Translations under genes and position numbers: made by a program
DNA from: a virus
Strand: one strand, 5' to 3'
Length of the DNA stretch: 24,122 bases
Virus record (IMG/VR): IMGVR_UViG_3300009172_001193
Coordinates: 1 to 24,122 of that record
The notes under the pieces: generated by a model
What the model was told of the DNA's origin: nothing
What the model saw: only the letters and a program-made list of their open reading frames with translations
The model's database searches: none
Shown here: one piece after another, positions 2,052-19,050 of the stretch
Position numbering within the stretch: the first letter of the stretch is position 1
How the letters are laid out: the number at the start of each line of letters is the position of its first letter

Positions 2052-2939
2052 TTATGTTCCTATAGCATTTCCAAACAAGTAGACATGTACTCTTGCCGCT
2101 ACATTGTATCCTCGTTTAAATGCCTTTTCTGCGACCGCACCTGCTGTCGCATGTTGTTCTTCTTCTCTTGCCCCTACAGGCATAACCCATACAGGCCACA
2201 TAACGCCGGCTTCCCTAAACTGGCTTATAACCCCTTCCATCTCTTCCCAATGTTCTTCTTGATGGCCAACTACAAACTTTAATTGACCTGTTTTACTTGC
2301 TTTGTAATAATCAGCAACAATCTCTGGCTTAATAGCTTTTTCAGGTTTCTCTCCTGCAACATTCCAAAGTTTAGGACTACAACTAAAAAATATTTCAGTA
2401 TCTATTTCTTTTACCCAATCTTTAAAGTCTTCACTAAGTTTTTGTGTTCCGTTAGTTTCAAATGTCATTGAAGCTGGCACATTGTTCTGTCTTACTAATT
2501 CGTTGTGTATACCTACAGTTGCTCTTTGTCCTGTAATCATAAGTGGCTCGCCACCTGTAATACACAAATGTTGTTGTTGTTTACTTACTGGATGCAAGAA
2601 CAGTCCTTCAGGGTTGCTATCATTTTTCATAATATCAATAATTTTATTTGCTAACACTTCAGGCTCTTCGTGTCCCATTAGACTCTTAAACTTCTTTGCC
2701 CAAGTGTAACTACTGTCGCAACCTTTATCCCATACAGGTAAGTCTTCAACTCTGTCTACACTAGATACATCAAAGTCTTCAAAAGGCAGTTCATATGTTT
2801 CTGGATTTGTAGGATCTATTTGTCCAAAGCCATTACATTGTAAGTTACATAAGAAGAAACGTATCCAAGCAGTAGGTACACCTGTATAATGTCCTTCTCC
2901 TTGTATACTGTGAAATATCTCACTATAATAGTATTTCAT
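2052..2939 (-). CDS. queE: 7-carboxy-7-deazaguanine synthase (radical SAM)
   Basis: QueE converts 6-carboxy-tetrahydropterin to 7-carboxy-7-deazaguanine with SAM and a [4Fe-4S] cluster. The start EIFHSIQGEGHYTGVPTAW (7-25) is typical of QueE; GGEP is at 129-132 and a TFETNGTQ strand near 160. The cluster motif is unusual: C31 and C35 (CNLQC) are followed by about 38 residues before C74 in GCDSSYTW, the segment that aligns with the usual WCDTxxTW. So the motif is CX3CX38C, with an insertion between the second and third cysteines. At 295 residues it is longer than E. coli QueE (about 220). It has its own promoter at 2961-2989 and GAGGAG just before the ATG. With FolE, a QueD-like protein and a TGT-like enzyme in the window, it most likely feeds DNA base modification rather than tRNA queuosine. 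Confidence 0.88.
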   Translation of the reverse strand: MKYYYSEIFHSIQGEGHYTGVPTAWIRFFLCNLQCNGFGQIDPTNPETYELPFEDFDVSSVDRVEDLPVWDKGCDSSYTWAKKFKSLMGHEEPEVLANKIIDIMKNDSNPEGLFLHPVSKQQQHLCITGGEPLMITGQRATVGIHNELVRQNNVPASMTFETNGTQKLSEDFKDWVKEIDTEIFFSCSPKLWNVAGEKPEKAIKPEIVADYYKASKTGQLKFVVGHQEEHWEEMEGVISQFREAGVMWPVWVMPVGAREEEQHATAGAVAEKAFKRGYNVAARVHVYLFGNAIGT

Positions 2940-3749: not shown

Positions 3750-4076
3750 TCATTTCTCCATTAAATTCTTTTTATCTTTTGTATCTTTAAATTCATCTGC
3801 TTCTGGTAAAGGATCTTTTTGCTCTGTGATTACTGGCCATTTTTGTGACATCTCTTCGTTAATTGTAATCCAATCTTTATCAGGATAACTTTGCATTTCG
3901 TAATCATCTATGATTGCATCTACAGGACACTCAGGTATGCATACTCCACAGTCAATACATTCATCAGGGTTAATAACTAACATGTTAGGCCCTTCATAAA
4001 AACAATCAACTGGACATACACTTACACAATCAGTATACTTACATTTAATACATGCGTCTACAACGTAATGTGGCAT
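3750..4076 (-). CDS. fdxA: 7Fe ferredoxin, FdxA type
   Basis: 108 residues starting [17 protein letters not shown]. Cysteines are placed as in Azotobacter ferredoxin I: C9, C17 and C50 for a [3Fe-4S] cluster, and C21, C40, C43, C46 for a [4Fe-4S] cluster, plus conserved C12 and C25. The acidic C-terminal tail (about 58-108) is also family-like. The ATG at 4076 was chosen over one 27 bases upstream because the family begins MPYVV and because AAGGA lies just before it; it is one base after the stop of the phosphoribosyltransferase gene. The protein would carry electrons in the host cytoplasm, possibly to QueE or to another Fe-S or iron enzyme encoded here. The partner is inference. Confidence 0.9.
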
Positions 4077-4077
4077 A

Positions 4078-4629
4078 TTATCCTTTTTCCCATGGAAAGA
4101 CAATCCAGTGGTCTTTCTCTGCTTTATTAATCTCTATTGAAGTATAGTCAATCTCTATGTCACTACCTAAATTGTTTACTATTGAAGCAAACTTGACATT
4201 ACCACTTTTACTTTGAAATACTTTATTCCAGGATTCATGTTCATCTGGCATACAAATAGATCTCCAATCGTTTTTAATCCACTCGTATGTTGCACCAGTA
4301 TCATTTATATCATCTAATATTAGAATCTTTTTTCTCTTACTAGGATCCCATCTGCATTTAAATATTTTTTGTTGTTCTTCGTTCATATAACCAAAAGCAT
4401 CTTCTGCCATCCAACAGTTACTTTCGTTTTCAGATACACCATCTCTTAGTCTAACATCTAGTGTATGCATGCGTAAATCATATTGATGACTCATTAATAC
4501 TGCCGGGACTAATCCTCCTCGAGTAATACCAACAATGTAATCAGGTCTCCATTGATCTTTATACATTTGACTAGCAATATCATGTACTGCGTTCTCAATG
4601 TCAGTATCAGTTAAAAACATTTTATTCAT
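4078..4629 (-). CDS. purine-type phosphoribosyltransferase
   Basis: 183 residues. The PRPP-binding motif is clear: [13 protein letters not shown] (102-114), and the pyrophosphate-loop element [13 protein letters not shown] lies at 31-43. This is the type I phosphoribosyltransferase fold, closest by eye to hypoxanthine/xanthine-guanine enzymes, which make a nucleoside monophosphate from a free base and PRPP. Base specificity cannot be read from the sequence. The start at 4629 is preferred to the one at 4644 because AGGAGG lies six bases before it; the stop of the upstream gene is two bases away. Together with GMP reductase it suggests purine salvage during infection. Confidence 0.8.
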
Positions 4630-4630
4630 A

Positions 4631-5113
4631 TTATTCCTCCTCAAAGCTATCAGGCCCAGAAAGTAATTTCTCCATTGCCTTATACTCGTTATATAATTGT
4701 TTTAATCCTTCAAATTTTTTATGCATTTCTTCATTTGGATATAGTATAGCAAGCCTTTTATCGATAACTTCTAACTTACGATTTATCTCTGCAATTTGTA
4801 CTTGTTCAAATCCAGGATCTCCCATCTTATCACCTATAGTAGTCCAAGGTGTATGAGTTGAACCCGGAGCAAACTCATAACTGTTGTTCCAGCCAATGTC
4901 TTCTGTTGCAGAAATTGCAGTTAAGGTAACATCATTTGTAACAGGAACTGTTCCTATTACTTCGTCATGTGTTCCGTCAGTGGTTACTGTAGTTGTAAGA
5001 GTTGCATCTTTCTTAACTAACTTACGTTTACTATCACCAAACTTCCGTGAGTAAACAGTCTTACCTTTGTCTGGGCTTTCGTAAATATACTTTGTGTTAT
5101 CGTTGTCTGACAT
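4631..5113 (-). CDS. conserved hypothetical phage protein with C-terminal coiled coil
   Basis: 160 residues. The N-terminus (KYIYESPDKGKTVYSRKFG, 8-26) resembles a motif that I recall from proteins of T4-like cyanophages. A low-complexity Thr/Val-rich stretch (about 37-70) follows, with an aromatic middle (about 74-91, including SYEFAPGSTH). From about 104 to 150 the sequence is a charged heptad-like helix (AEINRKLEVIDKRLAIL, then FEGLKQLYNEYKAMEKLL), a likely coiled coil. It could be a small structural or scaffolding protein. No function is assigned. Confidence 0.6.
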   Translation of the reverse strand: MSDNDNTKYIYESPDKGKTVYSRKFGDSKRKLVKKDATLTTTVTTDGTHDEVIGTVPVTNDVTLTAISATEDIGWNNSYEFAPGSTHTPWTTIGDKMGDPGFEQVQIAEINRKLEVIDKRLAILYPNEEMHKKFEGLKQLYNEYKAMEKLLSGPDSFEEE

Positions 5114-5128
5114 TACACCTACTACTAG

Positions 5129-5803
5129 TTAAGGCTTGTTAACAATATTCATAAACTCAGCTCTAACAGAAGCATCAGTTTTAAATACTCCACCAAGTTT
5201 ACTTGTAATAGTAGAGCTACCAGTATCTTCAACACCTCTAGACTTAACACAATAATGAGATGCATCAACTACGACTGCAACATGGTCTGTTTCTAAGATT
5301 GCCTGTAGTGCATGAAATACTTGCTCTGTTAAACGTTCTTGTATTTGAGGACGTTTAGCAAAGTATTCAACAATACGATTAATTTTAGACAGTCCAAGCA
5401 CTTTCTGATTAGGGATATATGCAACAGTAGCAAGTCCGTCGATAACAACAAAGTGATGCTCACAGTTACTTTGAACGTTAATATTACGTTCAACAACCAT
5501 TTCATCGTACTTCATTTTATTGTCTACTGCTGTACATTTAGGAAATGCTTCGTAATCGAGACCCCAAAAGATTTCGTTTACATACATTTTTGCAACTCTC
5601 TTTGGAGTATCCATTAAACTATCGTCACTTAGATCTAGTCCAAGTGTTTCCATAATCTTATTAAAATGTTTTTCGATAATTTCAATCTTGTCTGTACGAC
5701 TTAGATTGTTTTCTATTACAGGAGTTTCAACTCCCTTTTTAACTAGATATTCATGGATTGATTGCCCTAAGGCGGGGTCGGTTTTAGTTTTATTATATGA
5801 CAT
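5129..5803 (-). CDS. folE: GTP cyclohydrolase I
   Basis: FolE turns GTP into dihydroneopterin triphosphate, the first step of both folate and 7-deazaguanine synthesis. 224 residues, matching the family. Zinc and active-site residues are present: C114-E-H-H117 in SNCEHHFVV, H183 and C185 in ASHYCVKSRGVE, and the conserved blocks IPNQKVLGLSKINRIVEYFA (130-149) and RPQIQERLTEQV (151-162). The ATG at 5803 has AAGGAAGG six bases upstream. A 100-base gap precedes it, with a late-type box. Given QueE and a DpdA-like enzyme in the window, supply of deazaguanine precursor is the likely reason a phage keeps this gene; folate supply for dTMP synthesis is the alternative. Confidence 0.95.
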   Translation of the reverse strand: MSYNKTKTDPALGQSIHEYLVKKGVETPVIENNLSRTDKIEIIEKHFNKIMETLGLDLSDDSLMDTPKRVAKMYVNEIFWGLDYEAFPKCTAVDNKMKYDEMVVERNINVQSNCEHHFVVIDGLATVAYIPNQKVLGLSKINRIVEYFAKRPQIQERLTEQVFHALQAILETDHVAVVVDASHYCVKSRGVEDTGSSTITSKLGGVFKTDASVRAEFMNIVNKP

Positions 5804-5869
5804 AGTTTTCCTTCCTTACACGGATAATAAATTTTAATTTGTTTAGGGTACCTTTGTGTACCTTGCAAC

Positions 5870-5877
5870 TATTTATC
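5870..5877 (-). promoter_or_regulatory. possible T4-type late promoter box upstream of folE
   Basis: GATAAATA on the minus strand in the 100-base gap before folE, one base from the TATAAATA consensus of T4 late promoters. No convincing -35/-10 pair was found in the gap. A single short AT-rich match is weak evidence. Confidence 0.25.
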
Positions 5878-5903
5878 ATCATTTTAATTATTGTACACTC
5901 TTT

Positions 5904-6161
5904 CTACGGATTAATCAAGACTTCTGAAGGCCATTTCTCAAGAAATTCTAACATATCTTCCCGTTTTTTAAATTCAACATATGTTGTAGTAGACATGTTA
6001 TCAAACTTTTCGATACTGTTTCTCAAGTTATGAATTCTTCTCCAGTCAATTTCCTCACCTTTATAATTATGAGCTTTCCATCTTTTACCACAATGTGCAT
6101 TTAACCATTTCTTAACTTGAGATAATTCAACAACACTTTTATCTAACTTAATGTTGTTCAT
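5904..6161 (-). CDS. small hypothetical protein
   Basis: 85 residues, not recognised. It is basic and aromatic in the middle (WLNAHCGKRWKAHNYKGEEIDWRRI, split around residues 19-43) and helical at the end (EDMLEFLEKWP). No signal or membrane segment. The ATG overlaps the stop of the glutaredoxin gene by four bases (ATGA), so the two are translationally coupled. The Trp/Arg/Lys-rich core could bind nucleic acid, but this is a guess from composition only. Confidence 0.6.
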   Translation of the reverse strand: MNNIKLDKSVVELSQVKKWLNAHCGKRWKAHNYKGEEIDWRRIHNLRNSIEKFDNMSTTTYVEFKKREDMLEFLEKWPSEVLINP

Positions 6162-6409
6162 GCTTCTGTGTAGATTTTGTGATTCATTAAATCAGTCCAA
6201 CCTCCAACTAACTTATCATCAACAAAGATTTGAGGAACTGTTTTAGCATTAGGTACTGCTTCAAGTAGCATCTCTCTAGTAAACCCATCTGCTCCAATCT
6301 TATGTTCTGTATATGCTATGTCTTTTGTTTCAAAGAAGTGTTTAGCCATATCACAGTAACCACATAAATCTCTGCTGTATATTACAACTTTATATCTAGT
6401 ATTATACAT
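6158..6409 (-). CDS. glutaredoxin
   Basis: 83 residues. Thioredoxin-fold redox protein with the active site C16-G-Y-C19 (CPYC in the classical form), the cis-proline TVP at 57-59 that binds glutathione, and the GG pair at 69-70 followed by WTDL. Like T4 NrdC it could reduce ribonucleotide reductase or other disulfides in the host cytoplasm. The ATG at 6409 was chosen: it overlaps the upstream stop as TAATG, and the resulting length fits the family, whereas a TTG start at 6451 would add 14 residues not seen in glutaredoxins. The Shine-Dalgarno is poor, so expression probably depends on coupling. No ribonucleotide reductase is in the window. Confidence 0.9.
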   Translation of the reverse strand: MYNTRYKVVIYSRDLCGYCDMAKHFFETKDIAYTEHKIGADGFTREMLLEAVPNAKTVPQIFVDDKLVGGWTDLMNHKIYTEA

Positions 6410-6600
6410 TATACTTTTTCTAACCTTTCTGTCATAGATCCTATAAAACAACTTCCTTCAGTTGCATTGTAATCATTTATTATATCAGGGAGTTTCTTGT
6501 TACACTCCTCTAGTTTAGTTATGCCATACATCTGTTCTGGATCTATACTCATATTAAATCCACTAAAGGTTAAGTATACTACCAAGATTACCTCATTCAT
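6409..6600 (-). CDS. small exported two-cysteine protein, unknown function
   Basis: 63 residues. The hydrophobic N-terminus MNEVILVVYLTFSGFNMS suggests export or membrane anchoring, although it lacks the usual positive charge. Two cysteines follow (in LEECNKK and GSCFIG). It overlaps the cytidylyltransferase gene upstream and the glutaredoxin gene downstream (TAATG). The ATG at 6600 is preferred over a GTG one codon earlier. Not recognised; similar in layout to the protein at 663-920. Confidence 0.5.
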   Translation of the reverse strand: MNEVILVVYLTFSGFNMSIDPEQMYGITKLEECNKKLPDIINDYNATEGSCFIGSMTERLEKV

Positions 6601-7003
6601 CACATACTCGTTTTCTTAGGTCAGTAGTACTAAATCGGTGATCTCTTTTATTAAAATATAATTCAATATCTCTAGCTTTACAAACATCTCTACCTGTAAA
6701 ATCTTTTTCTTTATATTCTACACCCAAGAATCTTACGTCTAATTGAAACAAACTTAGTATGTCTATTACATCTACTTCTGTTTGATAAGGTACAATCTCG
6801 TCAACAAACTTTAATGCATTTAATTGTGTATAACGTTCTACCATTGTTTGTATTGGTTTGTTTTTTGTGTCCGGTCTATCAATAGTAGGATCGCTTTGTA
6901 GACCAACAATAAGATAATCGCAATTTGCTTTTGCTTCTCGTAACATACCAACATGTCCTGCATGAAGTAAGTCAAATGTACTAAATGTAATACCTACTCT
7001 CAT
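6593..7003 (-). CDS. glycerol-3-phosphate cytidylyltransferase-like (TagD family)
   Basis: 136 residues, the normal size for TagD-type enzymes that make CDP-glycerol from CTP and glycerol-3-phosphate. The nucleotidyltransferase signature H14-A-G-H17 is in FDLLHAGHVGML, and the C-terminal RFSTTDLRKR corresponds to the RTxGISTT nucleotide-binding motif, shortened here. The N-terminal VGITFSTFD strand is standard. The exact alcohol-phosphate substrate is uncertain. It overlaps its upstream neighbour as TAATG. Lying in the same run as GalE, a glycosyltransferase and a cupin, it probably takes part in making an activated polyol or sugar. Confidence 0.82.
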   Translation of the reverse strand: MRVGITFSTFDLLHAGHVGMLREAKANCDYLIVGLQSDPTIDRPDTKNKPIQTMVERYTQLNALKFVDEIVPYQTEVDVIDILSLFQLDVRFLGVEYKEKDFTGRDVCKARDIELYFNKRDHRFSTTDLRKRVCDE

Positions 7004-7775: not shown

Positions 7776-8804
7776 TTATCCATAATCCTTAAACCTCTTA
7801 CAATTATACCAGGCCCATGTTGTTCTAATAATATTGTCTAGAGTTGAGTTTGTTGCTTGCCAGCCTACAATGTTTTCTATTTTCTTAGAGCTAGCCACTA
7901 ACCTCCCGGGATCTCCAGGTCTCCTAGGTCCCTTGTGTACTAGGAGTGTTTTATTAGTGTGTCTTTCAATAGCACTAATAATCTCTTTAATAGAATAACC
8001 TTTACCAGTACCTAAATTAAAGTAATCAAACTGTCCAGGTTTAAAAGTTTTACCAAGTTCGTATGCAGTTCTATGAGCTTTGGCAATATCTTCTACATGT
8101 AAGTAATCTCTAACACAAGTTCCGTCCGGAGTATCATAATCAGTTCCGTTTAATGTAAACACATCATTTATCATTAAGGCTTGCATTATTCTAGCAATTA
8201 AATGTGTTGCTTGTTTAACTTGTCCGTGTCTAACTTTAGTATCAGCACCACAGGCATTAAAGTAACGTAAACAAATAGCTTTGAACCCATATGCTTTTGC
8301 ACAATCCTCAATAACTTTTTCAGCCATTAACTTACTCATACCATACGGACTAGGAGGTTTTGTTTCAAATGTTTCTCTAATAGATTCATTCTGTTTAGGA
8401 TCTGTAGCCGAATAAACAGCCGCTGAACTAGAAAATATAAATGTTCCATCCCATTTAAGAGTAGCCAATGAACTTAGCAACTTAGAAGTTTGTCCTACAT
8501 TATTAGTATAGTACTTAGAAGGATCTGACACACTAGGTCCTACTAAACTCTCACCAGCAATATGTATTACTGCTACAGGTTTGAGTGTTCTAAGTTGATG
8601 TAAGAATATTCCGTTTGTATAATCTCCTGGAATAAAAGAATCTATATGTTCTAGTAACCAAGAACCTGTTTGCTGATTCCTATCACACCCGAGTATTTTG
8701 TATCCAAGTCTTTTAAACTCAAGTACAGTTTGTCCTCCAATGTAACCATTACAACCGGTAATAGCAATCCATTCATCACGTTCTTGTGCTTCTACATGTT
8801 CCAT
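7776..8804 (-). CDS. galE: UDP-glucose 4-epimerase-like NAD-dependent sugar epimerase
   Basis: 342 residues, extended SDR fold. The NAD-binding G17-x-x-G-x-x-G is in TGCNGYIGG (16-24); the catalytic site is S125-S127 (FSSSAAVY) with Y154-x-x-x-K158 (PYGMSKLMAEK); LRYFNACGAD (179-188) and DTPDGTCVRDYLHVEDIA are strongly GalE-like, as is the C-terminal RRPGDPGRL. It should interconvert UDP-glucose and UDP-galactose or the N-acetyl forms. The first 11 residues are a short extension. With the glycosyltransferase just upstream in the transcript it probably supplies the sugar donor. Confidence 0.9.
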   Translation of the reverse strand: MEHVEAQERDEWIAITGCNGYIGGQTVLEFKRLGYKILGCDRNQQTGSWLLEHIDSFIPGDYTNGIFLHQLRTLKPVAVIHIAGESLVGPSVSDPSKYYTNNVGQTSKLLSSLATLKWDGTFIFSSSAAVYSATDPKQNESIRETFETKPPSPYGMSKLMAEKVIEDCAKAYGFKAICLRYFNACGADTKVRHGQVKQATHLIARIMQALMINDVFTLNGTDYDTPDGTCVRDYLHVEDIAKAHRTAYELGKTFKPGQFDYFNLGTGKGYSIKEIISAIERHTNKTLLVHKGPRRPGDPGRLVASSKKIENIVGWQATNSTLDNIIRTTWAWYNCKRFKDYG

Positions 8805-8817
8805 ACTAACCTACTTT

Positions 8818-10008
8818 CTAGTATTTAGGTGTTGCTACATGATCTCTATATCTGTTACCAGACCTAGACCATTGTTTTCCGTCCATTCCTTGCATAATAT
8901 CAATCATACGATCAATAGTACCGTTAGTCCAATCACTAATAGGTCCTTGATTAACAGGTCCTGTTAATAGCTTTTCTAACTTTATAAGTGCATCTTCTTG
9001 ACTCCAAGGAACATACAAACGTTCATGATCATTATTAAAAGTTTCTGGGAAACTTCTATAAGCTGGATATAAAACGTTGCATCCTAATGTGTCTGCTTCA
9101 CTCACTGTATTACTAACCCAATCTTGTAATGCACAATTAAACAATACTTTACTATCATTAAGTATAGCATAGTAATCATTCTTTTGCAAGTCATTATATA
9201 TTGTAAGATGTCCTTTTTCTTGCATTGCTTTTGCACGTTCGATATACTTAGGATTGTTAGAACGTAAAGGGCCTCCACTTAGTACTGCAAACTCAACTTT
9301 TTCATTTTCTTTAAAGTGTGTAGAATTATAAGTTTCAATAAGATCCATAAAGAAGTCTGGTTGCTTTTCTTGATCAAACCTTGCCGCAAATACAACTCGA
9401 TTTTTTCGTGTACTCCAATCTTGTACACCACCACCAACACGTCCTAATACTTCTTCTTTACCAAAACTTAATCCTGATATATTGTAAATAGGTGCAGTCC
9501 AGTTTGCAATTCGCATATGGGCAACCATTTCTTCGTTAGTTGCAAGTATAGTAACATTAGGGATCTCGTTACACATTTGTTCGTATAACGACATCCACTT
9601 ACTCATACCCCAAACATGTACAAAGTCATCTGGATCAATTGCTTGTGCTAAACAACGTAGAAAAATCTTAGGTCGTTGCTGAGCTGGTATCTGGCACATG
9701 ATATATGGTAATGATTCCATACCAGGTTGAAACATGTCTTCAAAAAAGATAACGTCATCACCAGTACATTCTCCACTTCGCATCATTTGTACTAAGTTCA
9801 TCATCTGGCTCATACCAAAGTATGAACGTCCGTGTGCATCAAGTACTTGTCCTACACTAATTGCTTTAGTGTCATCAATAGTAGTTCCAGGAACAATTAC
9901 ATAATCAATGTTCCTCTTTTGAAAAGCGGCTACACTCCATTGTTGTAATTGTAAAGTGTAACGTCCTTCGTAAGGCTCAAGGCCCATATAGAATAGTTTT
10001 CTAAACAT
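8818..10008 (-). CDS. GT-B glycosyltransferase, GT4-like
   Basis: 396 residues. The C-terminal Rossmann half begins with NRVVFAARFDQEKQPDFFMDLI (203-224), the GT4-type strand and helix that contact the nucleotide sugar; LTIYNDLQKNDYYAILNDSKVLFN (268-291) and the VSEADTLGCNVLYP region (302-315), where the donor-binding Glu is E304, follow in the usual order. The N-terminal half (about 1-190) is the acceptor domain and is not recognised. Acceptor could be host lipopolysaccharide, a phage protein or modified DNA. galE lies directly downstream and a QueD-like gene two genes upstream. The sequence alone does not decide between these. Confidence 0.75.
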   Translation of the reverse strand: MFRKLFYMGLEPYEGRYTLQLQQWSVAAFQKRNIDYVIVPGTTIDDTKAISVGQVLDAHGRSYFGMSQMMNLVQMMRSGECTGDDVIFFEDMFQPGMESLPYIMCQIPAQQRPKIFLRCLAQAIDPDDFVHVWGMSKWMSLYEQMCNEIPNVTILATNEEMVAHMRIANWTAPIYNISGLSFGKEEVLGRVGGGVQDWSTRKNRVVFAARFDQEKQPDFFMDLIETYNSTHFKENEKVEFAVLSGGPLRSNNPKYIERAKAMQEKGHLTIYNDLQKNDYYAILNDSKVLFNCALQDWVSNTVSEADTLGCNVLYPAYRSFPETFNNDHERLYVPWSQEDALIKLEKLLTGPVNQGPISDWTNGTIDRMIDIMQGMDGKQWSRSGNRYRDHVATPKY

Positions 10009-10011
10009 TGC

Positions 10012-10434
10012 TTATACCCACTCAACAGTAATTTCCCATAACGGCTCACTTCTATAGTTCCAAAGTTCTGCTTCACCAACAGCATTTTTGTAAATGCCTA
10101 CATGAATTTTAAGAACCTTAGGAGTACGTTCCGGAGTTCCTTGAATATGGAACGTGTAAGTAAAACTCCTGTTTCCAGTATCTTCATGGAAACGAGACTC
10201 AGGTTTATCAATAGTATAACTATAGATTTGCTCTGCTTTCTTAAGATCGTCCAAGTAAGAACGATAAAGTTTTAAAGGTAACTCGCCTAAGTCAGGAGTT
10301 AGATATCCATCATAAAGCTCTGATATCTTTAAAAGATCATACTTAATGTGGGCTAAGTTTAGTGACTTGTTACGCCTGTGTCCACTAAAACGGACGTGAG
10401 GGCGAACATTAATCGAATTGTCGGAAACAACCAT
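10012..10434 (-). CDS. conserved hypothetical protein downstream of the QueD-like gene
   Basis: 140 residues from the ATG at 10434, chosen because AGAGG lies nine bases upstream; this overlaps the end of the QueD-like gene by 26 bases. Starts further upstream would overlap by up to 80 bases. The sequence is basic at the start (RPHVRFSGHRRNKS), helical in the middle (YLDDLKKAEQIYSY), and ends in beta strands (RSFTYTFHIQG, KVLKIHVGIY, PLWEITVEWV). Not recognised. Coupling to the QueD-like gene suggests a linked role, which is inference. Confidence 0.6.
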   Translation of the reverse strand: MVVSDNSINVRPHVRFSGHRRNKSLNLAHIKYDLLKISELYDGYLTPDLGELPLKLYRSYLDDLKKAEQIYSYTIDKPESRFHEDTGNRSFTYTFHIQGTPERTPKVLKIHVGIYKNAVGEAELWNYRSEPLWEITVEWV

Positions 10435-10780
10435 TTTCATTATCCTCTGATACATCGATCCATACAGATCGGTTTGGGTACTTTTCATTAATTTGCTTAT
10501 ATAGGTCTTCTGCCATCATCTCGCAACTCTTATAATCAAGTTCAAGAATACTGCCTTTATAGAGATTCAAACACCATCGCTTGAACTGTATAAACTCTAC
10601 ATCTCTGTCATCATGGAAAACTTCCATGTGAACTTTAAAGTAAAAGATGTGTCGATGCGGGCTTGCTAAAAAGCTCACATCATATTCGTCACCGGTAGCA
10701 AGTTTTGGATCAGTTGCCGCGGCCGGATAACAATGCATTCCTTCTAATTGGAAGGTGATCCAGATCATGTCTTTTGACAT
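10409..10780 (-). CDS. QueD / 6-pyruvoyl-tetrahydropterin synthase-like protein (divergent)
   Basis: 123 residues, the size of QueD. The elements line up in order with QueD: an early histidine (H16 in EGMHCYP), the zinc pair H42-x-H44 in PHRHIFYFKVHMEV, DRDVEFIQFKRW (58-69) for the MVxDFxxLK strand, KSCEMMAEDLYKQI (84-97) for PTSExLAxxIW, and SVWIDVSEDNENG (105-117) for the terminal strand with its Glu. The catalytic cysteine that normally precedes HGH is missing (ASPHRH here); C86 lies elsewhere. So it is either a divergent QueD making carboxy-tetrahydropterin or another T-fold protein. FolE and QueE in the window favour the first. AAGGA seven bases before the ATG supports the start. Confidence 0.5.
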   Translation of the reverse strand: MSKDMIWITFQLEGMHCYPAAATDPKLATGDEYDVSFLASPHRHIFYFKVHMEVFHDDRDVEFIQFKRWCLNLYKGSILELDYKSCEMMAEDLYKQINEKYPNRSVWIDVSEDNENGCFRQFD

Positions 10781-11179: not shown

Positions 11180-11710
11180 TTATGTCTTACCAAAAAGTGA
11201 TATGGTTTCATCTTTCTCATAATGAGACCATGGAGTAAACTTCTCTTTAGTTACATCGTGTACATTCATACACCAAACACCTTTGTTAGATCCTTTAAAC
11301 TCTGCGTCTGCAATCTTAACAATAAGATTAGGGTTAATAGTTTTAACATCAGGAATGTGTACACTTAGTAAAGGAATAAACTTATTAGATGACCATACTT
11401 CCGGTTTAATTATATTTAAAAACGTCTTATGCAAGTGTGCTTCATAATCAAACGATACCCAAAAGTCTTCTGCTAATAGTAATGTTATTGTGTTATTCCA
11501 ATCATTTTTTGGAAATGAATTAGTATAAGTTTGAACACTATGATTTGCACCTAGATAGATATGAGAAATATTATGCTCATTTGCTATTTCAATAATCTTT
11601 TCAGGATCAGGATGTCCTTGAACAAATAATGTTTTCTTACCAAATGCTACAGTATGCTCTACTTCAGTTCCTGTAAAGAACTCTGTATCATCATAATTAT
11701 CAACTGCCAT
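11180..11710 (-). CDS. conserved hypothetical protein
   Basis: 176 residues. An opening block FFTGTEVEHTVAFGKKTLFV (11-30) is followed by HISHIYLGANHS-like beta/alpha segments, which suggests a Rossmann-type fold; later parts are NTITLLLAEDFWVSFDYEA and FIPLLSVHIPDVK. I have the impression that this type of sequence is shared by T4-like marine phages but cannot name a family. The ATG overlaps the stop of the methyltransferase gene as TAATG, so it belongs to the DpdA-methyltransferase transcript. Confidence 0.65.
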   Translation of the reverse strand: MAVDNYDDTEFFTGTEVEHTVAFGKKTLFVQGHPDPEKIIEIANEHNISHIYLGANHSVQTYTNSFPKNDWNNTITLLLAEDFWVSFDYEAHLHKTFLNIIKPEVWSSNKFIPLLSVHIPDVKTINPNLIVKIADAEFKGSNKGVWCMNVHDVTKEKFTPWSHYEKDETISLFGKT

Positions 11711-12456
11711 TATTTTTCTCCTAATAACGTTTCAATTTCGTTATAGTCATTATTAATTTTGTTAATTGAATTATATAAGTCATAGCTTAGAGGTGCAAAC
11801 TCTGCTACAATATTATCAAAGTTATCTTGTAATGTAGTATTGTTTGCATCTAAGTTTGTTACAAAACCTAAACCTGTAGGGAAAGTAGGAATAGTTCTTA
11901 CCATAAGATCAGGTCTGTACTTGTTTATAATGTGCATAAACTTCCAAGTATCTCCTGCCCAATAAAATGTGTTCCAATCTCTTGTTGCAGTTTCAGGAAC
12001 AACAGGAAACACATCATGAAATAATGTTACAGTATCATGTGTACTATACTTTTCAATATTAATAAAGTCCCAAAGAACTTGATCATAATGATGTAAGCCA
12101 TCTACAAATGCAAGTTCAATAGGTCCTTGCATTATTTCTGTTACATTGTTATTTGCAAAGAAGTCATCGCTTGTATCACTATATATTTTTGTGTTGTCGC
12201 TTAACTCAATTTCTGTAAGAGGATTAGGATCAACGCCTATACAATTTGTAGTAGAGTTTGCATACTGTAAACTCCTGCCAGTATTAGTACCAATCTCCAA
12301 ATAGTTAGCAGGCTTTAGAGTTTTATGAAACCATTGCAACCAGTCAGTATACTGTACTCCTGGAAGCAACCGTTCAGTTATCTCTTCATGCCTTGCTTTT
12401 TCATCTAAGTCTTTACCGGCTTGTTCCGGCTCGTCTATTTTTACTGCCACGTTCAT
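11710..12456 (-). CDS. class I SAM-dependent methyltransferase
   Basis: 248 residues. Motif I is YLEIGTNTGRS (52-62), the acidic end of strand 2 is D76 in IGVDPNP, and the later block ELAFVDGLHHYDQVLWDF (114-131) with the VTLFHDV strand (143-149) is typical of the Methyltransf_24/macrocin O-methyltransferase group. Such enzymes methylate small molecules, sugars or other hydroxyl acceptors. The stop overlaps the next gene (TAATG) and the start overlaps the end of the TGT-like gene (ATGA). That places it right beside the base-exchange enzyme. It might methylate a modified base or a sugar; the target is unknown. Confidence 0.8.
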   Translation of the reverse strand: MNVAVKIDEPEQAGKDLDEKARHEEITERLLPGVQYTDWLQWFHKTLKPANYLEIGTNTGRSLQYANSTTNCIGVDPNPLTEIELSDNTKIYSDTSDDFFANNNVTEIMQGPIELAFVDGLHHYDQVLWDFINIEKYSTHDTVTLFHDVFPVVPETATRDWNTFYWAGDTWKFMHIINKYRPDLMVRTIPTFPTGLGFVTNLDANNTTLQDNFDNIVAEFAPLSYDLYNSINKINNDYNEIETLLGEK

Positions 12457-14006
12457 TCTCCTACTCCTGATACTAACTTAGCAAGAGCTTCGTCATTAGG
12501 ATCATCAAAATCTCCTGCACCTGCCATTACTTCTGTTGTAGTATCGTCATCTGTACTAAAAAGATCATTAACCGAATCAGCACCAGTTGTTCTAGTCTTA
12601 CGTCCAGAGAACTCGTTCATTAACGGTATGCATTGATCTAATAGTTTATACGGCTCTTCGCTCTTAAACACCATGTCAACTAGTTCCATCATGTATAAAG
12701 CATTACGAGGCACCCACAAGTCCACCTGACCTTCCTGCGTTTTTTGTCTAGTCTTTCTCCACTGTCTAGGATCAGGGTGTGTCTGTTGCCAAGCAATGTC
12801 AGCAAGTGCATTAGCACGTTGAACAGACTGTATATGTTGATCCACGTTATGTGCCATAATTAAACTATAAGAAAAAGTATCCCAAGACGTTTTAGATACC
12901 TTTCCATTTTTGTTTGCTTGCCCTGGAGCATAGTAACAAACATCGCCCATTGTAATTCTATCGCCTACTGCCGACGACCAAGGCCATGGCATTTTACTAC
13001 CACTAAGGTCTCGGTTATCAACAGCCTTTTCCATTACATATGTCATACGTTCATTTGTGTGTACATGCTGAGTGTAGGTTAAACCGTATGCCGTGCTAAC
13101 GAATGGAGATGCACAGTCGTATGTTAAGAGTAAGTTCGGATTGACAGTTGCCTTTAAGGCTCTTTGAATCGCCGTTAAAAAGATTGCCCATTCCAATCGA
13201 CTTGTGCCAAGTACATGTATAACATCTCTACCTGGCTCAAGCATTCCTTCGTCACGCATTTGAATTAACCTACGAAGCAATAGGTGGGCATCTTGCATAT
13301 TGTTACCACCCATTGCCCAACCTTCAAATGGGAAGTGTTTAACATTATCATACCAAATGTCTGCTTCTTCGTTTGAACTACCTTGTAGCACATTAAGAAA
13401 CTTAGTTTTGTGTTGTCTATTTGCCATAAACCATGCATTGTTATACATTGTGCCATCTAGACATTGCTGGAAACTTTTTAGTCCAGTACGTTCGTTCAAA
13501 GGAGGCCTAGCCGCCCATGTCGGAATATCTAATACCATCGAATAGTCCGCAGTATACTCAAGCCAGTTTAAGATTTGTCCTCGAGTTTTATCTGCACTAC
13601 CTTTGTAACCTTCATCACCTGGCTTCTCTAAGAAGTTCTCCCAGTCAAATTTAATTACACCTTTTGCAATCTGGAACCCTCCAGAGTCGCCTAATATAAA
13701 AGTTTTATCTCTATCACGTTTCTGAATCATGCTTTCTGCAACATCAGTTTTATTTAAATCTAATTGTGCATGTCCTGCTGAATACAATGCATAAGGATAA
13801 TGAAAATATGCTTTATCTTTATTTAGGAAATTAAGTCCTTCAATGCCTTCTTCGAACCCAGCCGGGATACGAGTTGCAGGAACACTTTTACCAGGTTCGT
13901 TTTGTTCTTTACTTACAACAGTAGAATAGAATGTAGAGATACTAGGCAAAAATACTGCATAGTCTTCATTGGTATCCCATAAGTCAGTTTTATTTTTCGT
14001 TGTCAT
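12453..14006 (-). CDS. dpdA: TGT-like DNA guanine transglycosylase, DpdA family
   Basis: 517 residues, with the motif order of tRNA-guanine transglycosylases: D107 in GDSGGFQ (106-112), Q208 in NVLQGS, the glycine pair in GWAMGGNN (229-236), HVLGTSRLEWAIF (264-276), and the likely nucleophile D297 in LLTYDCASPF. In TGT these residues hold the 7-deazaguanine base and form the covalent intermediate. The C-terminal zinc motif CxCxxC of bacterial TGT is not visible, and about 120 residues follow SYSLIMAHNVDQH, so it is not an ordinary tRNA enzyme. With QueE and FolE on the same strand, the DpdA role, exchanging guanine in DNA for a 7-deazaguanine, fits best. An archaeosine-type tRNA enzyme is the alternative. 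Confidence 0.82.
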   Translation of the reverse strand: MTTKNKTDLWDTNEDYAVFLPSISTFYSTVVSKEQNEPGKSVPATRIPAGFEEGIEGLNFLNKDKAYFHYPYALYSAGHAQLDLNKTDVAESMIQKRDRDKTFILGDSGGFQIAKGVIKFDWENFLEKPGDEGYKGSADKTRGQILNWLEYTADYSMVLDIPTWAARPPLNERTGLKSFQQCLDGTMYNNAWFMANRQHKTKFLNVLQGSSNEEADIWYDNVKHFPFEGWAMGGNNMQDAHLLLRRLIQMRDEGMLEPGRDVIHVLGTSRLEWAIFLTAIQRALKATVNPNLLLTYDCASPFVSTAYGLTYTQHVHTNERMTYVMEKAVDNRDLSGSKMPWPWSSAVGDRITMGDVCYYAPGQANKNGKVSKTSWDTFSYSLIMAHNVDQHIQSVQRANALADIAWQQTHPDPRQWRKTRQKTQEGQVDLWVPRNALYMMELVDMVFKSEEPYKLLDQCIPLMNEFSGRKTRTTGADSVNDLFSTDDDTTTEVMAGAGDFDDPNDEALAKLVSGVGE

Positions 14007-14030: not shown

Positions 14031-14750
14031 TTATCCTTGGGCCATAATTAGGTATTCATAAGCAATAACGCCGCTATCAAATTCTACTTTAGCAACCTTT
14101 CCAGAAATACTCATAATAGGTGTACCTTGACTTGCTGTCTTTAGTGCTAGTATCAATGCATTAATAGGCAATGTAACAGGTTGTTTAAGATCCTGTGTAG
14201 TGTCTGCCATAACAAATTTACCAATATGTCCACCGCCTGCTTGTCCACCAAGTGTAAAGATAAGTTTACCATCTTCAGTAGTAGCAATTAAGTTAGGATC
14301 AATATTAGTATAAAGTCCTGCTCTTGTTGCAAGTTCAGAAATCTTGTTAGCCGCAGGTTGCAATGTTACTTGCCACTCTGTACCTTTAAAACTTCTAGGT
14401 TTAGTCTTCATTAAGTTAGTTGGCGTTAAACGATAGTGATCGTTGTTACCACTTTTGTCTGTAAAAATAAATCTATCAGTTTCATCTTTACTATTTGTAC
14501 CAGTTGCTACATTAGAGTCTTCACTCTTATATAAGTTAGACAACCCAACAAAGAAAGGCAAGTTAAGCATACCATACTTGTCAGGTAGTTCATCATATTC
14601 TTTAGGTGCTTCTGCTAGTACAGTAATTGTACTATCTTCTGGATATGCAGTAAACTTCGTTTTACCTGCATCTTTCTCTACCAGAATCTCTTCAAACGTA
14701 CCAAGCGAAGCAATATTCTTCGAAACGTCTAGTGTAATATCTTTAAGCAT
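14031..14750 (-). CDS. sliding clamp, T4 gp45-like
   Basis: 239 residues, close to T4 gp45 (228). It lies directly after the DNA polymerase gene, as a processivity factor would. LPDKYGMLNLPFFVGLSNL (55-73) matches the DLxxFLGxLSL segment of gp45. The protein then has alternating short strands (KLIFTLGGQ, KFVMADTT, PIMSISGKVAKVEF) and ends YEYLIMAQG, in the place of the clamp's C-terminal strand. Overall similarity is low, so the call rests on length, segment order and position. Clamp trimers tether the polymerase and in T4 activate late transcription. It has its own sigma70-type promoter at 14776-14804. Confidence 0.7.
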   Translation of the reverse strand: MLKDITLDVSKNIASLGTFEEILVEKDAGKTKFTAYPEDSTITVLAEAPKEYDELPDKYGMLNLPFFVGLSNLYKSEDSNVATGTNSKDETDRFIFTDKSGNNDHYRLTPTNLMKTKPRSFKGTEWQVTLQPAANKISELATRAGLYTNIDPNLIATTEDGKLIFTLGGQAGGGHIGKFVMADTTQDLKQPVTLPINALILALKTASQGTPIMSISGKVAKVEFDSGVIAYEYLIMAQG

Positions 14751-14821: not shown

Positions 14822-17467
14822 TTAGCCAAATAAGTCATCTACAAAGCCTCTGTCTTTTGTTTGGTTGAGATCCCAATTAAGGACACCAAGTAAGTTATCT
14901 ATCTTGCTATCAATAATAGTCTCCTCCATTGCATCATGGTCAAATGGTAGTTCCTTAAACCAATCAGGAATGTTTAGCTCATCAATCGGATAACCAATTG
15001 AAGTAATTTGCATTGGGTTATTCTTTAACTTACACACAATAGTTTTCTGTCCATCAGTTAGATCCATACTACGTTGGTCACCAAATGCTATCTTTAACCT
15101 ATTCCAATTTATAGCGGCTAGTGCATGTCCTATTCTGCACTTACCTGTCTTGTTATAAACGGCAGTATGTTTAGTTAAGTTATTAACTCGCTTAGGTGTA
15201 CCCTTTTCCCAACCCGGCCTTGCTTTAAATTCCTCACGAAATTCTTTAACACGTTGCATAACACTTTCTGGATCAGCACCTTCTAATGTTTTACCTAGTA
15301 TTTCTTCTAAGAATCGTTGCATAAACTCTGGAGTATCTGCACGTTTCATATCTAGGCCCATTGCTTTTAGTTTTCCTGGTGAACCATTGCCATCTTTACG
15401 TTGACCTTCTTCGTCATATATCATAACTGCATAACGTTTCTTAGTCATATAAATTCCACGAGATGCAACAACTTCTCTACCAGCTTTAATAATCTCTCCT
15501 AGTACCTGAGGACAATTAAACGCCTCGTTCATAAATCCAGGAAACGTTTCATTAACTTGTTCTGCTACTGTATCATAAATTTCAATAACTTTATCTTTAG
15601 TCCATTCTACTTTACCAGCTTCAATTTCATCTTTAAATAATGGATAAGCACTAAAGTAAACAGAATCAGTATCACCATATATTACTGCGTCACCCATATG
15701 ATCTTTTTTACCTGTAAAAGATTCATTAACTGCACCTGCCATATGTCTAGCAATACAACGTCCTGTAAGTGTAGTACTTTGTCCTAATCGCATATCAAAG
15801 AAACGACTACCTGCATTAAGTAATGCACCATACAAACTGTTCAAGTTAATCTTTTTAACTAACTGACGTTTATCCCAATACTCTTTGTCTTCAGGAGTTT
15901 TAGCATTTCTAAGTTCTGCTTGCATTTCTTTACGTTCAGCATACCAACGTTCTAGTAATCCAGGAATAACACCTTTCTCAGCATACGAGAATATAGTACC
16001 ATTGCTAGTAAGCATTAAAGATTGTCCACTAAAGTATACTAACTCATATATTTCTGCGGCAGACATTTCTTCAGACTGTCCATTTTCCCAATCCAAAATT
16101 AGTGTGACACCTTTGTCACGTTTCATTACATGTTCATACTCGGCACAAGCAAACTTACCTTCCCATGCTTCAGCAACACCTTTACCAGATGTTAAGAAGC
16201 CATCAATCATTTCTTCTGTTTCTGTTTGCCTAATTTGTGCAATAATTGTTTCTGGACTCATATTCAAAGCACGAATAATACTAGGATACAGACTGTTCAA
16301 ATCCATACTACCTATCCATTCATGCATACCTTTTTTAGGTACTGCAACATAAGCACCTGCCGCGGCATTAGTTGAACCATCTGTACGTCCTGGTCTATTA
16401 GGAACTATTAGTCCTCTGCTATGTGCTTCGTTAACTAGTGCTTGGTCAGTAACTGCAACCGCACCCATTGTAGCTCTAAGTGTAACTGTATTAGCATGGG
16501 CAATAAGATTAGTTAAGTCTAAGAACTGTAACTTCTGATCTAACTTCTTTAGTAGTACAACGTCTTGTCTGTTATAAGCAATAAACTTTTCAAAGTCATT
16601 GTTATATAACTGATCTAAAGAACCCTCATACGGGATCTTCTTTTCACCAATTTCAAATTCACCAATAGCATCTAGTCTATAAGTGTGTTGTTCATGGAAG
16701 TTATATTTTCTGTAAAGTTCTAGATAGTCTAAATGTACACGACCAATTGTATCAAATGTTTCTTGAGTTCTACCATAACGTTCAAACTCTCGTTTTTTAG
16801 GAAACTTATCTCCTAAACAAAAACGTCTAGTTTGCTCTTTGCCTAAAACTTTAGTAACACGATTAACCATATAAGGAATATCATAACCTTCTGAATTCCA
16901 ACCACTTAGTACATCTGCATCTTCAATAATATCTAAGAAGTATTCAAGCAACAAGTTTTCTGTTTCACATAAAATAGTATCTTCAAACTTTGATACAATA
17001 TCTTCTGCATGTTCCTTATTCATCTTTTTAGGAGCAACAACAAAAGTAATAGTTCTATCTAGCCAATCTAAATGTACTGTTACGGCAGTTACTGGATTAA
17101 ACGGATCACTAGGATCAGAGAATCCTTTTTCTCTATCATAGTCAACCTCAATATCAAAAAATGCTACTTGTAGTTTAGGTGCTTCTTGTCCGCCATAGTT
17201 TTCTTCTAGGCAACGTTGCATAGGCCTATAATCACTTTCCCAGCTTCTGCCATGTCCATGAATACGTTTTTCTTTATCAAATGCTTTAGCATTGCCTACC
17301 ATAATACGGCTAAGTTTGTTACCAGCAATATCTACAAATTTACCTTTAGCATCTGCATAGTACATTACATAACGACAAGGATAAACTTTCATTACCCTTT
17401 TACCATTAACACGTTCTACTACATTTATTATTTCTTTTTGTCTATCTTGCCAAGCATCTACAAACAA
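14822..17467 (-). CDS. DNA polymerase, family B (T4 gp43-like)
   Basis: 881 residues, against 898 for T4 gp43. Exonuclease motifs: D105-x-E107 in FFDIEVDYD, D196 in WNSEGYDIPY, and Y298-x-x-x-D302 in YNRQDVV. Polymerase motifs: A, D389 in MDLNSLYPSI; B, KKINLNSLYGALLNAG (538-553); C, D599 and D601 in YGDTDS. All catalytic residues are present, so both proofreading and synthesis should work. No intein or split. The only start that keeps the N-terminal strands is a TTG at 17467, with GGAG eight bases before it; it follows the stop of the upstream gene by one base. A rare start may keep the level low. Confidence 0.97.
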   Translation of the reverse strand: MFVDAWQDRQKEIINVVERVNGKRVMKVYPCRYVMYYADAKGKFVDIAGNKLSRIMVGNAKAFDKEKRIHGHGRSWESDYRPMQRCLEENYGGQEAPKLQVAFFDIEVDYDREKGFSDPSDPFNPVTAVTVHLDWLDRTITFVVAPKKMNKEHAEDIVSKFEDTILCETENLLLEYFLDIIEDADVLSGWNSEGYDIPYMVNRVTKVLGKEQTRRFCLGDKFPKKREFERYGRTQETFDTIGRVHLDYLELYRKYNFHEQHTYRLDAIGEFEIGEKKIPYEGSLDQLYNNDFEKFIAYNRQDVVLLKKLDQKLQFLDLTNLIAHANTVTLRATMGAVAVTDQALVNEAHSRGLIVPNRPGRTDGSTNAAAGAYVAVPKKGMHEWIGSMDLNSLYPSIIRALNMSPETIIAQIRQTETEEMIDGFLTSGKGVAEAWEGKFACAEYEHVMKRDKGVTLILDWENGQSEEMSAAEIYELVYFSGQSLMLTSNGTIFSYAEKGVIPGLLERWYAERKEMQAELRNAKTPEDKEYWDKRQLVKKINLNSLYGALLNAGSRFFDMRLGQSTTLTGRCIARHMAGAVNESFTGKKDHMGDAVIYGDTDSVYFSAYPLFKDEIEAGKVEWTKDKVIEIYDTVAEQVNETFPGFMNEAFNCPQVLGEIIKAGREVVASRGIYMTKKRYAVMIYDEEGQRKDGNGSPGKLKAMGLDMKRADTPEFMQRFLEEILGKTLEGADPESVMQRVKEFREEFKARPGWEKGTPKRVNNLTKHTAVYNKTGKCRIGHALAAINWNRLKIAFGDQRSMDLTDGQKTIVCKLKNNPMQITSIGYPIDELNIPDWFKELPFDHDAMEETIIDSKIDNLLGVLNWDLNQTKDRGFVDDLFG

Positions 17468-18009: not shown

Positions 18010-19050
18010 TTAACCTCCGTAGATAGTGTTATGTGTATTTAGACAACGAACAAAGACTGCACACTTTGCCATATCTTTAATTCGCTTTGCTCCAATGTAT
18101 GTACAAGCACTTCTAACTCCACCAAGAATTTCTGTAATGGTTCCATCAACAGCACCTTTATATGGAATTGTAACTACTTTGCCTTCTGCACCTCTATAAC
18201 CATCTTTACGAGAGCCATGTATTTCCATTGCTTCGTCCGAACTCATGCCATAGAACTTTACTTTACCATCTACAACCTCGCCCTCAGATTCATCGTGTCC
18301 TGCTAACATTCCGCCAAGCATTGTAAAATGAGCACCTGCTCCAAATGCTTTTGCAACATCACCAGGGTAAACACAGCCACCATCTGCAATAATGTGACCA
18401 CCTAATCCATTCGCGGCATCTGCACATTCGATAATACCAGACAGTTGAGGAATCCCAACACCTGTCATTAACCTTGTTGTACAAACACTACCAGGACCGA
18501 TGCCACATTTAACAATGTCTGCTCCTCGGACAATAAGTTCTTCAACCATCTCCGCAGTAATGACATTGCCTGCAATAATAGTTTTATCTGGATATCTGTC
18601 ACGTAGACGTGAAATAAATGTACCATAGTTTTCATGATAAGCATTTGCCACGTCAACTGTAATAAATTTAATATCCGGATATGATTCTAGTACTGCATTC
18701 ATTGTTGCAAAATCTGCCGCTTCTGGATCCCAGATGGCGGCTGTTCCTGTACATACACTAATGTACTTCATTTTGACACCACCTCCAATGGCTGTTTTCC
18801 AGTCATCCATCTTATAATGCTTTCGCATCACGGTTAGCATCTTATGTTCTTGTAATCTCTTTGCCATAGTGAAAGTTCCAACACCGTCCATGTTACTAGC
18901 AAGGATTGGAACGCCAGTCCATGTGTTACCGGAATTGTGAAACTTAAACGTACGAAGCAAGTCAACATCACGCCTAGATTCTAGCTTGCTCCTCTTAGGT
19001 TTAAAAAGAACGTCCTTAAAGTCTAATTTAACTTCTTCTTCAATACGCAT
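18010..19050 (-). CDS. guaC: GMP reductase
   Basis: 346 residues, nearly the length of E. coli GuaC (347) and similar along its whole length, starting MRIEEEVKLDFKDVLFKPKRS. GMP reductase converts GMP to IMP and ammonia with NADPH. Catalytic C190 and T192 are in GIGPGSVCTTR (183-193); ASNMDGVG (51-58), IIADGGC, FTMLGGMLAGH and GGVRSACTYIGA are all present. The CBS domains of IMP dehydrogenase are absent and the C-terminus is GuaC-like, so it is not IMP dehydrogenase. It has its own promoter at 19075-19103. A complete, well-conserved host-type enzyme suggests fairly recent or strongly selected capture. Confidence 0.95.
   Translation of the reverse strand: MRIEEEVKLDFKDVLFKPKRSKLESRRDVDLLRTFKFHNSGNTWTGVPILASNMDGVGTFTMAKRLQEHKMLTVMRKHYKMDDWKTAIGGGVKMKYISVCTGTAAIWDPEAADFATMNAVLESYPDIKFITVDVANAYHENYGTFISRLRDRYPDKTIIAGNVITAEMVEELIVRGADIVKCGIGPGSVCTTRLMTGVGIPQLSGIIECADAANGLGGHIIADGGCVYPGDVAKAFGAGAHFTMLGGMLAGHDESEGEVVDGKVKFYGMSSDEAMEIHGSRKDGYRGAEGKVVTIPYKGAVDGTITEILGGVRSACTYIGAKRIKDMAKCAVFVRCLNTHNTIYGG

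Follow-up and report, generated by a model that had tools for sequence, protein, structure and literature searches.

The window analysed here, the 24,122 nucleotides that form positions 1 to 24,122 of the IMG/VR virus record IMGVR_UViG_3300009172_001193, carries an intact single open reading frame (ORF) of 517 amino acids on its minus strand (12453..14006), and this dpdA-like gene very probably encodes a DNA guanine transglycosylase of the phage DpdA type. The locus as a whole, presumably part of a large (jumbo-type) bacteriophage, is reasonably well explained by a DpdA that is linked to the sliding clamp and supplied with its base independently of QueC. The putative clamp-docking tail and the apparently QueC-free, glycosyltransferase-linked gene cluster are the interesting parts of this locus. 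A deazaguanine system in this phage group is not new, because a jumbo-phage survey already describes synthesis and incorporation of deazaguanine for PA5oct (PMC7824862).

The assignment is based on the features of the tRNA-guanine transglycosylase (TGT) superfamily, i.e. a TGT barrel fold, two catalytic or base-binding aspartates and a glycine-rich pocket loop, which were all found in the window protein. Residues 107-112, DSGGFQ (13671..13688, minus strand), contain Asp107, which by analogy to TGT would serve in base recognition and catalysis. Residues 228-234, EGWAMGG (13305..13325, minus), align with E. coli TGT and resemble its GYAVGG base pocket, while Asp297 (13116..13118, minus) is the counterpart of the TGT nucleophile when aligned to the FDCVMP sequence of E. 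coli TGT. D107, E228, G229 and D297 are invariant in a 24-row alignment of the family (A1) and the remaining loop residues vary. A preliminary description of this gene had listed D107, GWAMGG and D297, and these motifs are present as it stated. An AlphaFold2 model built from 25 sequences (predicted local distance difference test, pLDDT, 78; predicted template modelling score, pTM, 0.82) retrieved TGTs in Foldseek as all 50 among the matches listed, with E-values from 4.7e-8. VIA-align superimposed 320 residues (model range 14-445) on mouse TGT with Z 18.8 and a root-mean-square deviation of 4.9, and sequence identity in the structural alignments with TGTs was 11-16%. A 464 amino acid long protein of phage nt-1, which has the same length as the nt-1 DpdA2, was also found by fold (E 1.5e-8). 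A modA match and a single PDB match were weak and taken as chance.

Using tblastn, relatives of the window protein were detected in 13 of 50,697 phage records. These are 11 PA5oct-like Pseudomonas phages with 37% identity and two further phages, Phosso of Sinorhizobium with 27% and 2.275.O of Vibrio with 35% across 42% of the query. A pattern-based scan of IMG/VR added 57 loci; L- and G-numbers below denote the IMG/VR or phage loci and genomes that were compared.

The CxCxxC zinc motif of TGTs, which the preliminary description had reported as missing, is absent from the window protein and was found in none of 60 relatives (L001-L060, fragments included). The same scan detected the motif at C302 of E. 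coli TGT, which served as positive control, and did not detect it in seven out of seven DpdA2 proteins or in the DpdA of phage 9g. Zinc loss therefore does not set the window protein apart from known DpdAs; it is a trait shared with those phage DpdAs that were tested and does not single the protein out. Thus, the earlier proposal that the protein is separated from tRNA enzymes by its zinc loss survives in its conclusion, a DNA enzyme, which gene context favours, and fails in its reasoning, since DpdA2 and 9g DpdA lack CxCxxC too. The preliminary description had also considered a zinc site formed by non-adjacent residues. This was rejected: no such C3H site is visible because a second alignment of 25 rows (A2) contains no invariant cysteine, C182 and C298 reaching a weight of 0.88 and C357 of 0.53. 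H386 and H391 are invariant in A2 and nearly invariant in A1. Residues 386-388, HNV (12843..12851, minus), of which H386 and N387 are invariant in A2, may be a remnant of the His-Asn-Leu that contains the zinc-ligand histidine of TGT, as matched by eye to TIHNL in E. coli.

In most of the matches listed, the alignment of the model with TGTs starts near residue 13 and ends at residues 436-448, which leaves approximately 75 extra residues; of these, 470-502 have a pLDDT below 50. The preliminary description had counted about 120 residues behind the last TGT-like block and interpreted them as a DNA-specific C-terminal domain, which the model does not support. As the range 14-445 aligns with mouse TGT, most of this part is instead predicted TGT fold, which extends to about residue 440; the chain then continues as a tail that is disordered in part and carries a peptide resembling clamp-binding motifs. 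This peptide, SVNDLFS (residues 478-484; 12555..12575, minus), lies in the low-confidence region, contains the invariant F483 (A2) and matches the polymerase C-terminus FVDDLFG of the window with a shuffle p of 0.038. Similar pairs of polymerase C-terminus and DpdA tail are found in PA5oct (HFDSLFG and SFNSLFD), in L026 (TFNSLFE and VFNSLFE) and in 2.275.O (NNTDLFD and NNNDLFG). Conservation is also seen in a second C-terminal patch, made up of F500, D501, L508 and L511 (residues 500-511; 12474-12509, minus), where a helix is predicted at 506-516.

Stronger evidence for such a peptide than the shuffle test within the family comes from DpdA2. The set L122-L201 comprises 80 loci, two of them without a DpdA2 ORF, and the remaining 78 yielded 54 distinct sequences. 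The pattern hxx[LIMFY][FYW] occurs within the last 14 residues of 47 of these 54 proteins, as compared to 89 of 519 controls, for which the remaining ORFs of the same loci with a length of 150 amino acids or more were used. A stricter form occurs in 46 of 54 and 41 of 519, respectively; the Fisher p-values of these comparisons are uncorrected for relatedness. The terminal peptide is mostly SLEDLFA/G. The nt-1, KVP40 and pf16 types of DpdA2 lack it. The DpdA of phage 9g ends in LQDLFDE, and three C-termini from the seven loci of the 9g type comprise two with LQDLFDE and one with ETPGLF. Among 14 glycosyltransferase tails, no clamp peptide was consistent.

Directly upstream of the dpdA-like gene, the window encodes a 239 amino acid long protein (14031..14750, minus; phrog_12062, unnamed) that is putatively a sliding clamp, and beyond it a family B DNA polymerase (PolB; 14822..17467, minus) with the C-terminus GFVDDLFG. 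Counting only loci with enough sequence, as for the synteny fractions given here other than that of QueE, PolB lies upstream of dpdA in 46 of 46 loci and the putative clamp was detected in 44 of 54. A profile of the putative clamp, for which the ORFs preceding dpdA in the window and in 58 loci were taken (37 distinct sequences; those of 200-300 amino acids were used), matches a Phosso protein that is annotated as sliding clamp beside a polymerase (E approx. 2e-70). Matches in L001, L002, L003 and L037 follow from the construction of the profile, so that only the annotated Phosso clamp (L094) is independent. The profile did not match the annotated clamps of CP220 or RHph or any clamp in the PDB, and the PA5oct relative is annotated as structural protein, both of which weaken this assignment. 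Near the polymerase, the window also contains an IMPDH/GMP-reductase-like gene (18010-19050, minus) and a nitronate-monooxygenase-like gene (20912-21838, plus).

Taken alone, the window protein has no match in Pfam or PHROG, and none to an NCBIfam family that exceeds the cut-off. In profile-profile comparisons, its family is weakly similar to E. coli TGT (probability 20%, E 0.0011) and shows no similarity to 9g DpdA (probability 0.3%); these results count against a DpdA assignment. If the protein instead acted on host tRNA as a tRNA-guanine transglycosylase, this would agree with the best PDB matches, which are tRNA enzymes, and FolE and QueE could then supply host queuosine synthesis. We nevertheless regard such a function as very improbable, because the family profile is nearer to DpdA2 (E 5.6e-7, probability 92%, partial match) than to E. 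coli TGT, because only the histidine of the CxCxxC...H signature of tRNA TGTs is kept, and because the position of the gene, with replication genes on one side and genes for base synthesis on the other, is conserved. Furthermore, 9g DpdA is reported to incorporate preQ0 into the DNA of plasmids, and a tgt mutant is not complemented by it (PMC6884629). A DpdA-type DNA enzyme is well supported by its context, in which polymerase and putative clamp lie upstream, folE, queE and further pathway partners lie downstream, and the arrangement is conserved in relatives. If DpdA is understood broadly, as a paralogue of TGT whose gene accompanies those for the synthesis of 7-deazaguanine, the protein belongs to this group, as indicated by FolE and QueE in the window and by synteny. 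A zinc site made of H386, H391 and acidic residues could account for the invariance of both histidines in A2, but it is improbable, because the region has no conserved cysteine and the TGT site is of the C3H type.

For the DNA enzyme, docking on the phage sliding clamp via the tail peptide is suggested by the resemblance of this peptide to the polymerase C-terminus and to the ends of DpdA2, and by the precedents of RB69/T4 and 9g. In RB69 and T4, a C-terminal PIP box of the polymerase gp43 binds the gp45 clamp (PMC3012046). PMC13216743 reports that T4 alpha-glucosyltransferase co-purifies with gp45, and that clamp contact is not the main determinant of the alpha/beta ratio in T4. In the parts of the literature consulted on DpdA, deazaguanine, sliding clamp and glycosyltransferase, no claim of clamp docking by DpdA was seen. 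The competing explanation is an ordinary DpdA with a tail that has no docking role, in which the LF peptide is due to chance or is a structural feature. The shuffle test provides arguments for this explanation. It covered 52 genomes with 31 distinct polymerase/DpdA pairs and left out X1, ZZ01 and loci with an incomplete dpdA or without a polymerase end. A p of at most 0.05 was reached in 12 of 31 pairs, at the motif in 10 and elsewhere in two, whereas 19 failed; those at the motif comprise 8 of 28 pairs of the window family and 2 of 3 of DpdA2. L004 and L007 narrowly exceeded 0.05; the FF clade, L033-L036, L012, Phosso and nt-1 also failed. Outside F483, conservation of the SVNDLFS columns in A2 does not exceed that of the remaining tail, and the patch F500, D501, L508 and L511 is as strongly conserved as the motif without explanation. 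In addition, the 573 amino acid long DpdA-like protein of the PhiXhv type and one 9g-like protein end differently. Against a tail without docking role stand the like peptide at the extreme C-terminus of most DpdA2 proteins and the invariance of F483 within a variable tail. We therefore consider docking to be about an even call, and a tail without docking role to be slightly behind it at somewhat less than even. Our estimate for docking was initially marginally higher and was lowered because the identity of the clamp is not independently confirmed.

Genes proposed to act in a 7-deazaguanine pathway are encoded downstream. They include FolE, a GTP cyclohydrolase I (5129..5803, minus; top phage match, at 64%, annotated with this function; 34/34 loci), QueE, a 7-carboxy-7-deazaguanine (CDG) synthase (2052..2939, minus; phrog_2076, E 6.5e-55), a purine phosphoribosyltransferase (PRT; 4078..4644, minus; PF00156; 34/34 loci), and o123, a QueD/PTPS-fold protein (10409..10780, minus; 38/38 loci) that is a candidate CDG-processing enzyme replacing QueC. 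Of the 57 IMG/VR loci, 20 showed QueE, and many end before its position. The window QueE retrieved QueE-like genes from 191 records of the phage collection. In the window QueE-like protein, CX3C is followed by F instead of the third cysteine, and the next cysteine (GCDSSYTW) occurs about 40 residues later, which represents an insertion in the radical-SAM (S-adenosylmethionine) cluster motif, provided that the motif rule as we assume it applies. PRT is most similar to purine phosphoribosyltransferases in the PDB (1vdm, E 9e-13; 4z1o, 1.5e-10), with xanthine-guanine types being weaker, and a gene annotated as XGPRT adjoins the dpdA2 cluster in Synechococcus phage BUCT-ZZ01. There is perhaps an equal chance that PRT salvages the guanine released by DpdA exchange.

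The AlphaFold2 model of o123 has a pLDDT of 93, and its Foldseek search returned 18 matches at E<=0.001, every one QueD/PTPS. With this family, o123 shares the predicted T-fold and a His, HxH and Glu pattern, its conserved residues being H16, H42-x-H44, C86-E87 and E112. The two differ in that the catalytic cysteine four residues before HxH, which is invariant in the QueD alignment A5, corresponds to an invariant Leu38 in o123, and the similarity of their sequence profiles is weak (13.8%). A QueD is present in PA5oct, Phosso, 2.275.O and 5 of 18 IMG/VR contigs tested; the 340-kb contig G010 has one.

QueC, in contrast, was not matched in PA5oct or Phosso, and G010 gave a weak 60-residue match. 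Candidate QueC proteins in G007, G010, G011, G013 and G015 were rejected as weak matches that share the first 60 profile positions; that of G013 was, with its neighbours, just over the cut-off (22.5 bits), and the QueC-like match of L077 (G010) is presumably an NAD synthetase as judged from its SGGVDSA motif. Twenty-one records were tested for both proteins, most o123 phages having been picked by their o123 matches and not by QueC. Clear o123 was found in 12 of them (G010, PA5oct, Phosso, Bakedbeans, Ahp1, phiST, RHph_I1_18, ACP17, X1, ZZ01, D479 and Roos), and none of these 12 has a full-length QueC; the weak matches in X1 and G010 were below cut-off. Full-length QueC was present in 8 of 9 records without clear o123 (nt-1, 9g, CP220, 2.275.O, PhiXhv-12, pf16, KVP40 and Ep032). 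The ninth, Moby, which has an annotated QueC-like protein, gave a partial QueC match only (32.6 bits). A match to o123 in Moby, with E 0.009, was taken as chance. In Faecalibacterium phage Roos (L114), the o123-like gene is located at 6019-6327, and the genome has no QueE or QueC match.

The combination of FolE, QueE, PRT, o123 and glycosyltransferase as neighbours suggests that the base is made without QueC, which we consider likely. None of the 21 records combines o123 with a full-length QueC, so that o123 most likely replaces QueC in accepting the CDG made by QueE. Several observations weaken this conclusion. D479 has a partial QueC match over cut-off (32.8 bits) and is a possible exception, and 2.275.O, a member of the window DpdA family, has QueC and no o123, so that a QueC-free route is not universal in the family. 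Moreover, the window record is a 24-kb fragment, which makes its own lack of QueC uninformative. Decarboxylation of CDG by o123 would be one option. Cui et al. reportedly predicted a CDG decarboxylase, DpdL. Among the matches listed, no literature on DpdL, DpdM or DpdN was found.

The GT-B-like glycosyltransferase of the window (8818..10008, minus; 30/34 loci) is related to that of ACP17 (blastp E 9e-15). Relatives of the ACP17 enzyme are found in 20 of 50,697 phage records, consisting of 11 PA5oct-like phages, ACP17 twice, Phosso, X1, ZZ01, Ep032 and three PhiXhv phages. QueE and a DpdA-like protein are both present in seven of the seven representatives tested, PhiXhv-15 and PhiXhv-16 being left out. 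The DpdA-like match is weak in Ep032 and PhiXhv-12 (E 7e-9), and as these two are close kin, the seven correspond to about six phage types. The glycosyltransferase gene directly follows dpdA in PA5oct and ACP17; in Phosso it is adjacent to o123 and distant from dpdA. In PhiXhv-12 it adjoins a protein containing the QueC match and a gene annotated as N-acetylglucosaminyl-malate deacetylase. At 3747-6981 of this phage (L093), an annotated amidotransferase overlaps the QueC match (likely Gat-QueC) and is followed by the annotated deacetylase and the glycosyltransferase; this cluster is a candidate for an amino-sugar-bearing 7-deazaguanine.

These data raise the possibility of a glycosylated 7-deazaguanine, to which the neighbouring glycosyltransferase would add a sugar after insertion by DpdA. 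To our knowledge, no sugar-bearing 7-deazaguanine has been described as DNA base. The constant company of QueE and DpdA-like proteins and the position beside dpdA or o123 favour this product. So does the thymidylate synthase of PA5oct, which keeps the asparagine that we take to mark a true thymidylate synthase and thus gives no sign of hydroxymethylcytosine, a substrate that was rejected for PA5oct on this basis. On the other hand, the glycosyltransferase is missing from 4 of 34 family loci and was not found in six o123 phages, removal of the carboxylate by o123 would leave no obvious sugar handle, and the enzyme could modify surface sugars or proteins. A glycosylated base is therefore only a tentative prediction.

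A SAM methyltransferase (Methyltransf_24; 11710..12456, minus) overlaps the dpdA stop by four bases and was seen among the IMG/VR loci only in L008 and L031. A 176 amino acid long protein (o176; 11180..11710, minus) is found downstream of dpdA in 41 of 41 loci. An NAD-dependent, GalE-like nucleotide-sugar epimerase (7776..8804, minus; PF01370, E 1.4e-44) is present in 30 of 34 loci; L025, L026, L028 and L029, which contain two distinct DpdAs, lack both the glycosyltransferase and GalE. Cytidylyltransferase-like genes at 19975-20856 and 6593-7003, one of which is fused to a mannose-6-phosphate isomerase-type cupin, point to nucleotide-sugar synthesis in the phage. Elsewhere, an inositol-3-phosphate synthase is annotated in the dpdA2 cluster of Moby (L089; 2505-3755), and GFO/IDH/MocA and ADH-type dehydrogenases directly follow dpdA in L037 (11527-13285), which possibly reflects further decoration of the base.

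In the mechanism that we propose, FolE, QueE and QueD, the last encoded at another genomic site in large relatives, would produce CDG, which would then be handled by the QueD-fold o123 instead of QueC. With chemistry as in TGT, Asp297 would attack a guanosine of the phage DNA at its sugar. Guanine would leave and make room for a 7-deazaguanine that is bound by Asp107 together with the EGWAMGG loop, and the enzyme would work without the TGT zinc site. The tail peptide would probably bind the phage sliding clamp, and the enzyme would thereby move along with replication and act on newly made DNA. Each exchange would free a guanine, which the neighbouring PRT would probably salvage. The most far-reaching version, in which a clamp-docked, zinc-free DpdA, an o123 that replaces QueC and a dedicated glycosyltransferase together yield a new glycosylated 7-deazaguanine, and in which clamp tethering is general for phage DpdAs including DpdA2, is speculative and rather unlikely. 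If true, phage DpdAs would reach their substrate by riding the clamp, without a DNA-binding domain, and modification at the replication fork would be open to a one-residue test. It would also name o123 as a candidate stand-in for QueC and predict sugar-bearing 7-deazaguanine in culturable phages, such as PA5oct relatives.

At the sequence level, the window family appears to form a DpdA subfamily of its own. The DpdA2 profile A3 has no match in PA5oct, Phosso, 2.275.O and G010, and A1 has none in ACP17, X1 and ZZ01, which separates the family from DpdA2 as the 9g comparison separates it from DpdA1. Cui et al. are said to have described DpdA3 and DpdA4, from Campylobacter phages or archaeal viruses, in 2023; the family may coincide with one of these, though A1 has no match in the genome of Campylobacter phage CP220. 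With DpdA2 (Vibrio phage nt-1 YP_008125322 type; PMC6884629), it shares the DSGG.Q, H-x-LG and YD nucleophile blocks, the lack of CxCxxC, a clamp-like peptide in most members, and adjoining folE and other base-synthesis genes. It differs in that the two profiles miss each other, in about 30 additional N-terminal residues and in the internal instead of terminal position of the peptide. The TGTs of Z. mobilis and mouse, representing bacterial and eukaryotic enzymes, have the same fold, the two aspartates and the glycine-rich base pocket, whereas the window protein lacks CxCxxC and has an added N-terminal segment and tail. Phage 9g DpdA (DpdA1), with 317 amino acids and encoded in a genome that has QueC, shows no profile similarity, yet it also lacks the zinc motif and its gene likewise adjoins a clamp gene (9g_00002/00003). 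T4 alpha-glucosyltransferase performs other chemistry, but it is a DNA-modifying enzyme that binds the sliding clamp (PMC13216743), as is predicted here for DpdA.

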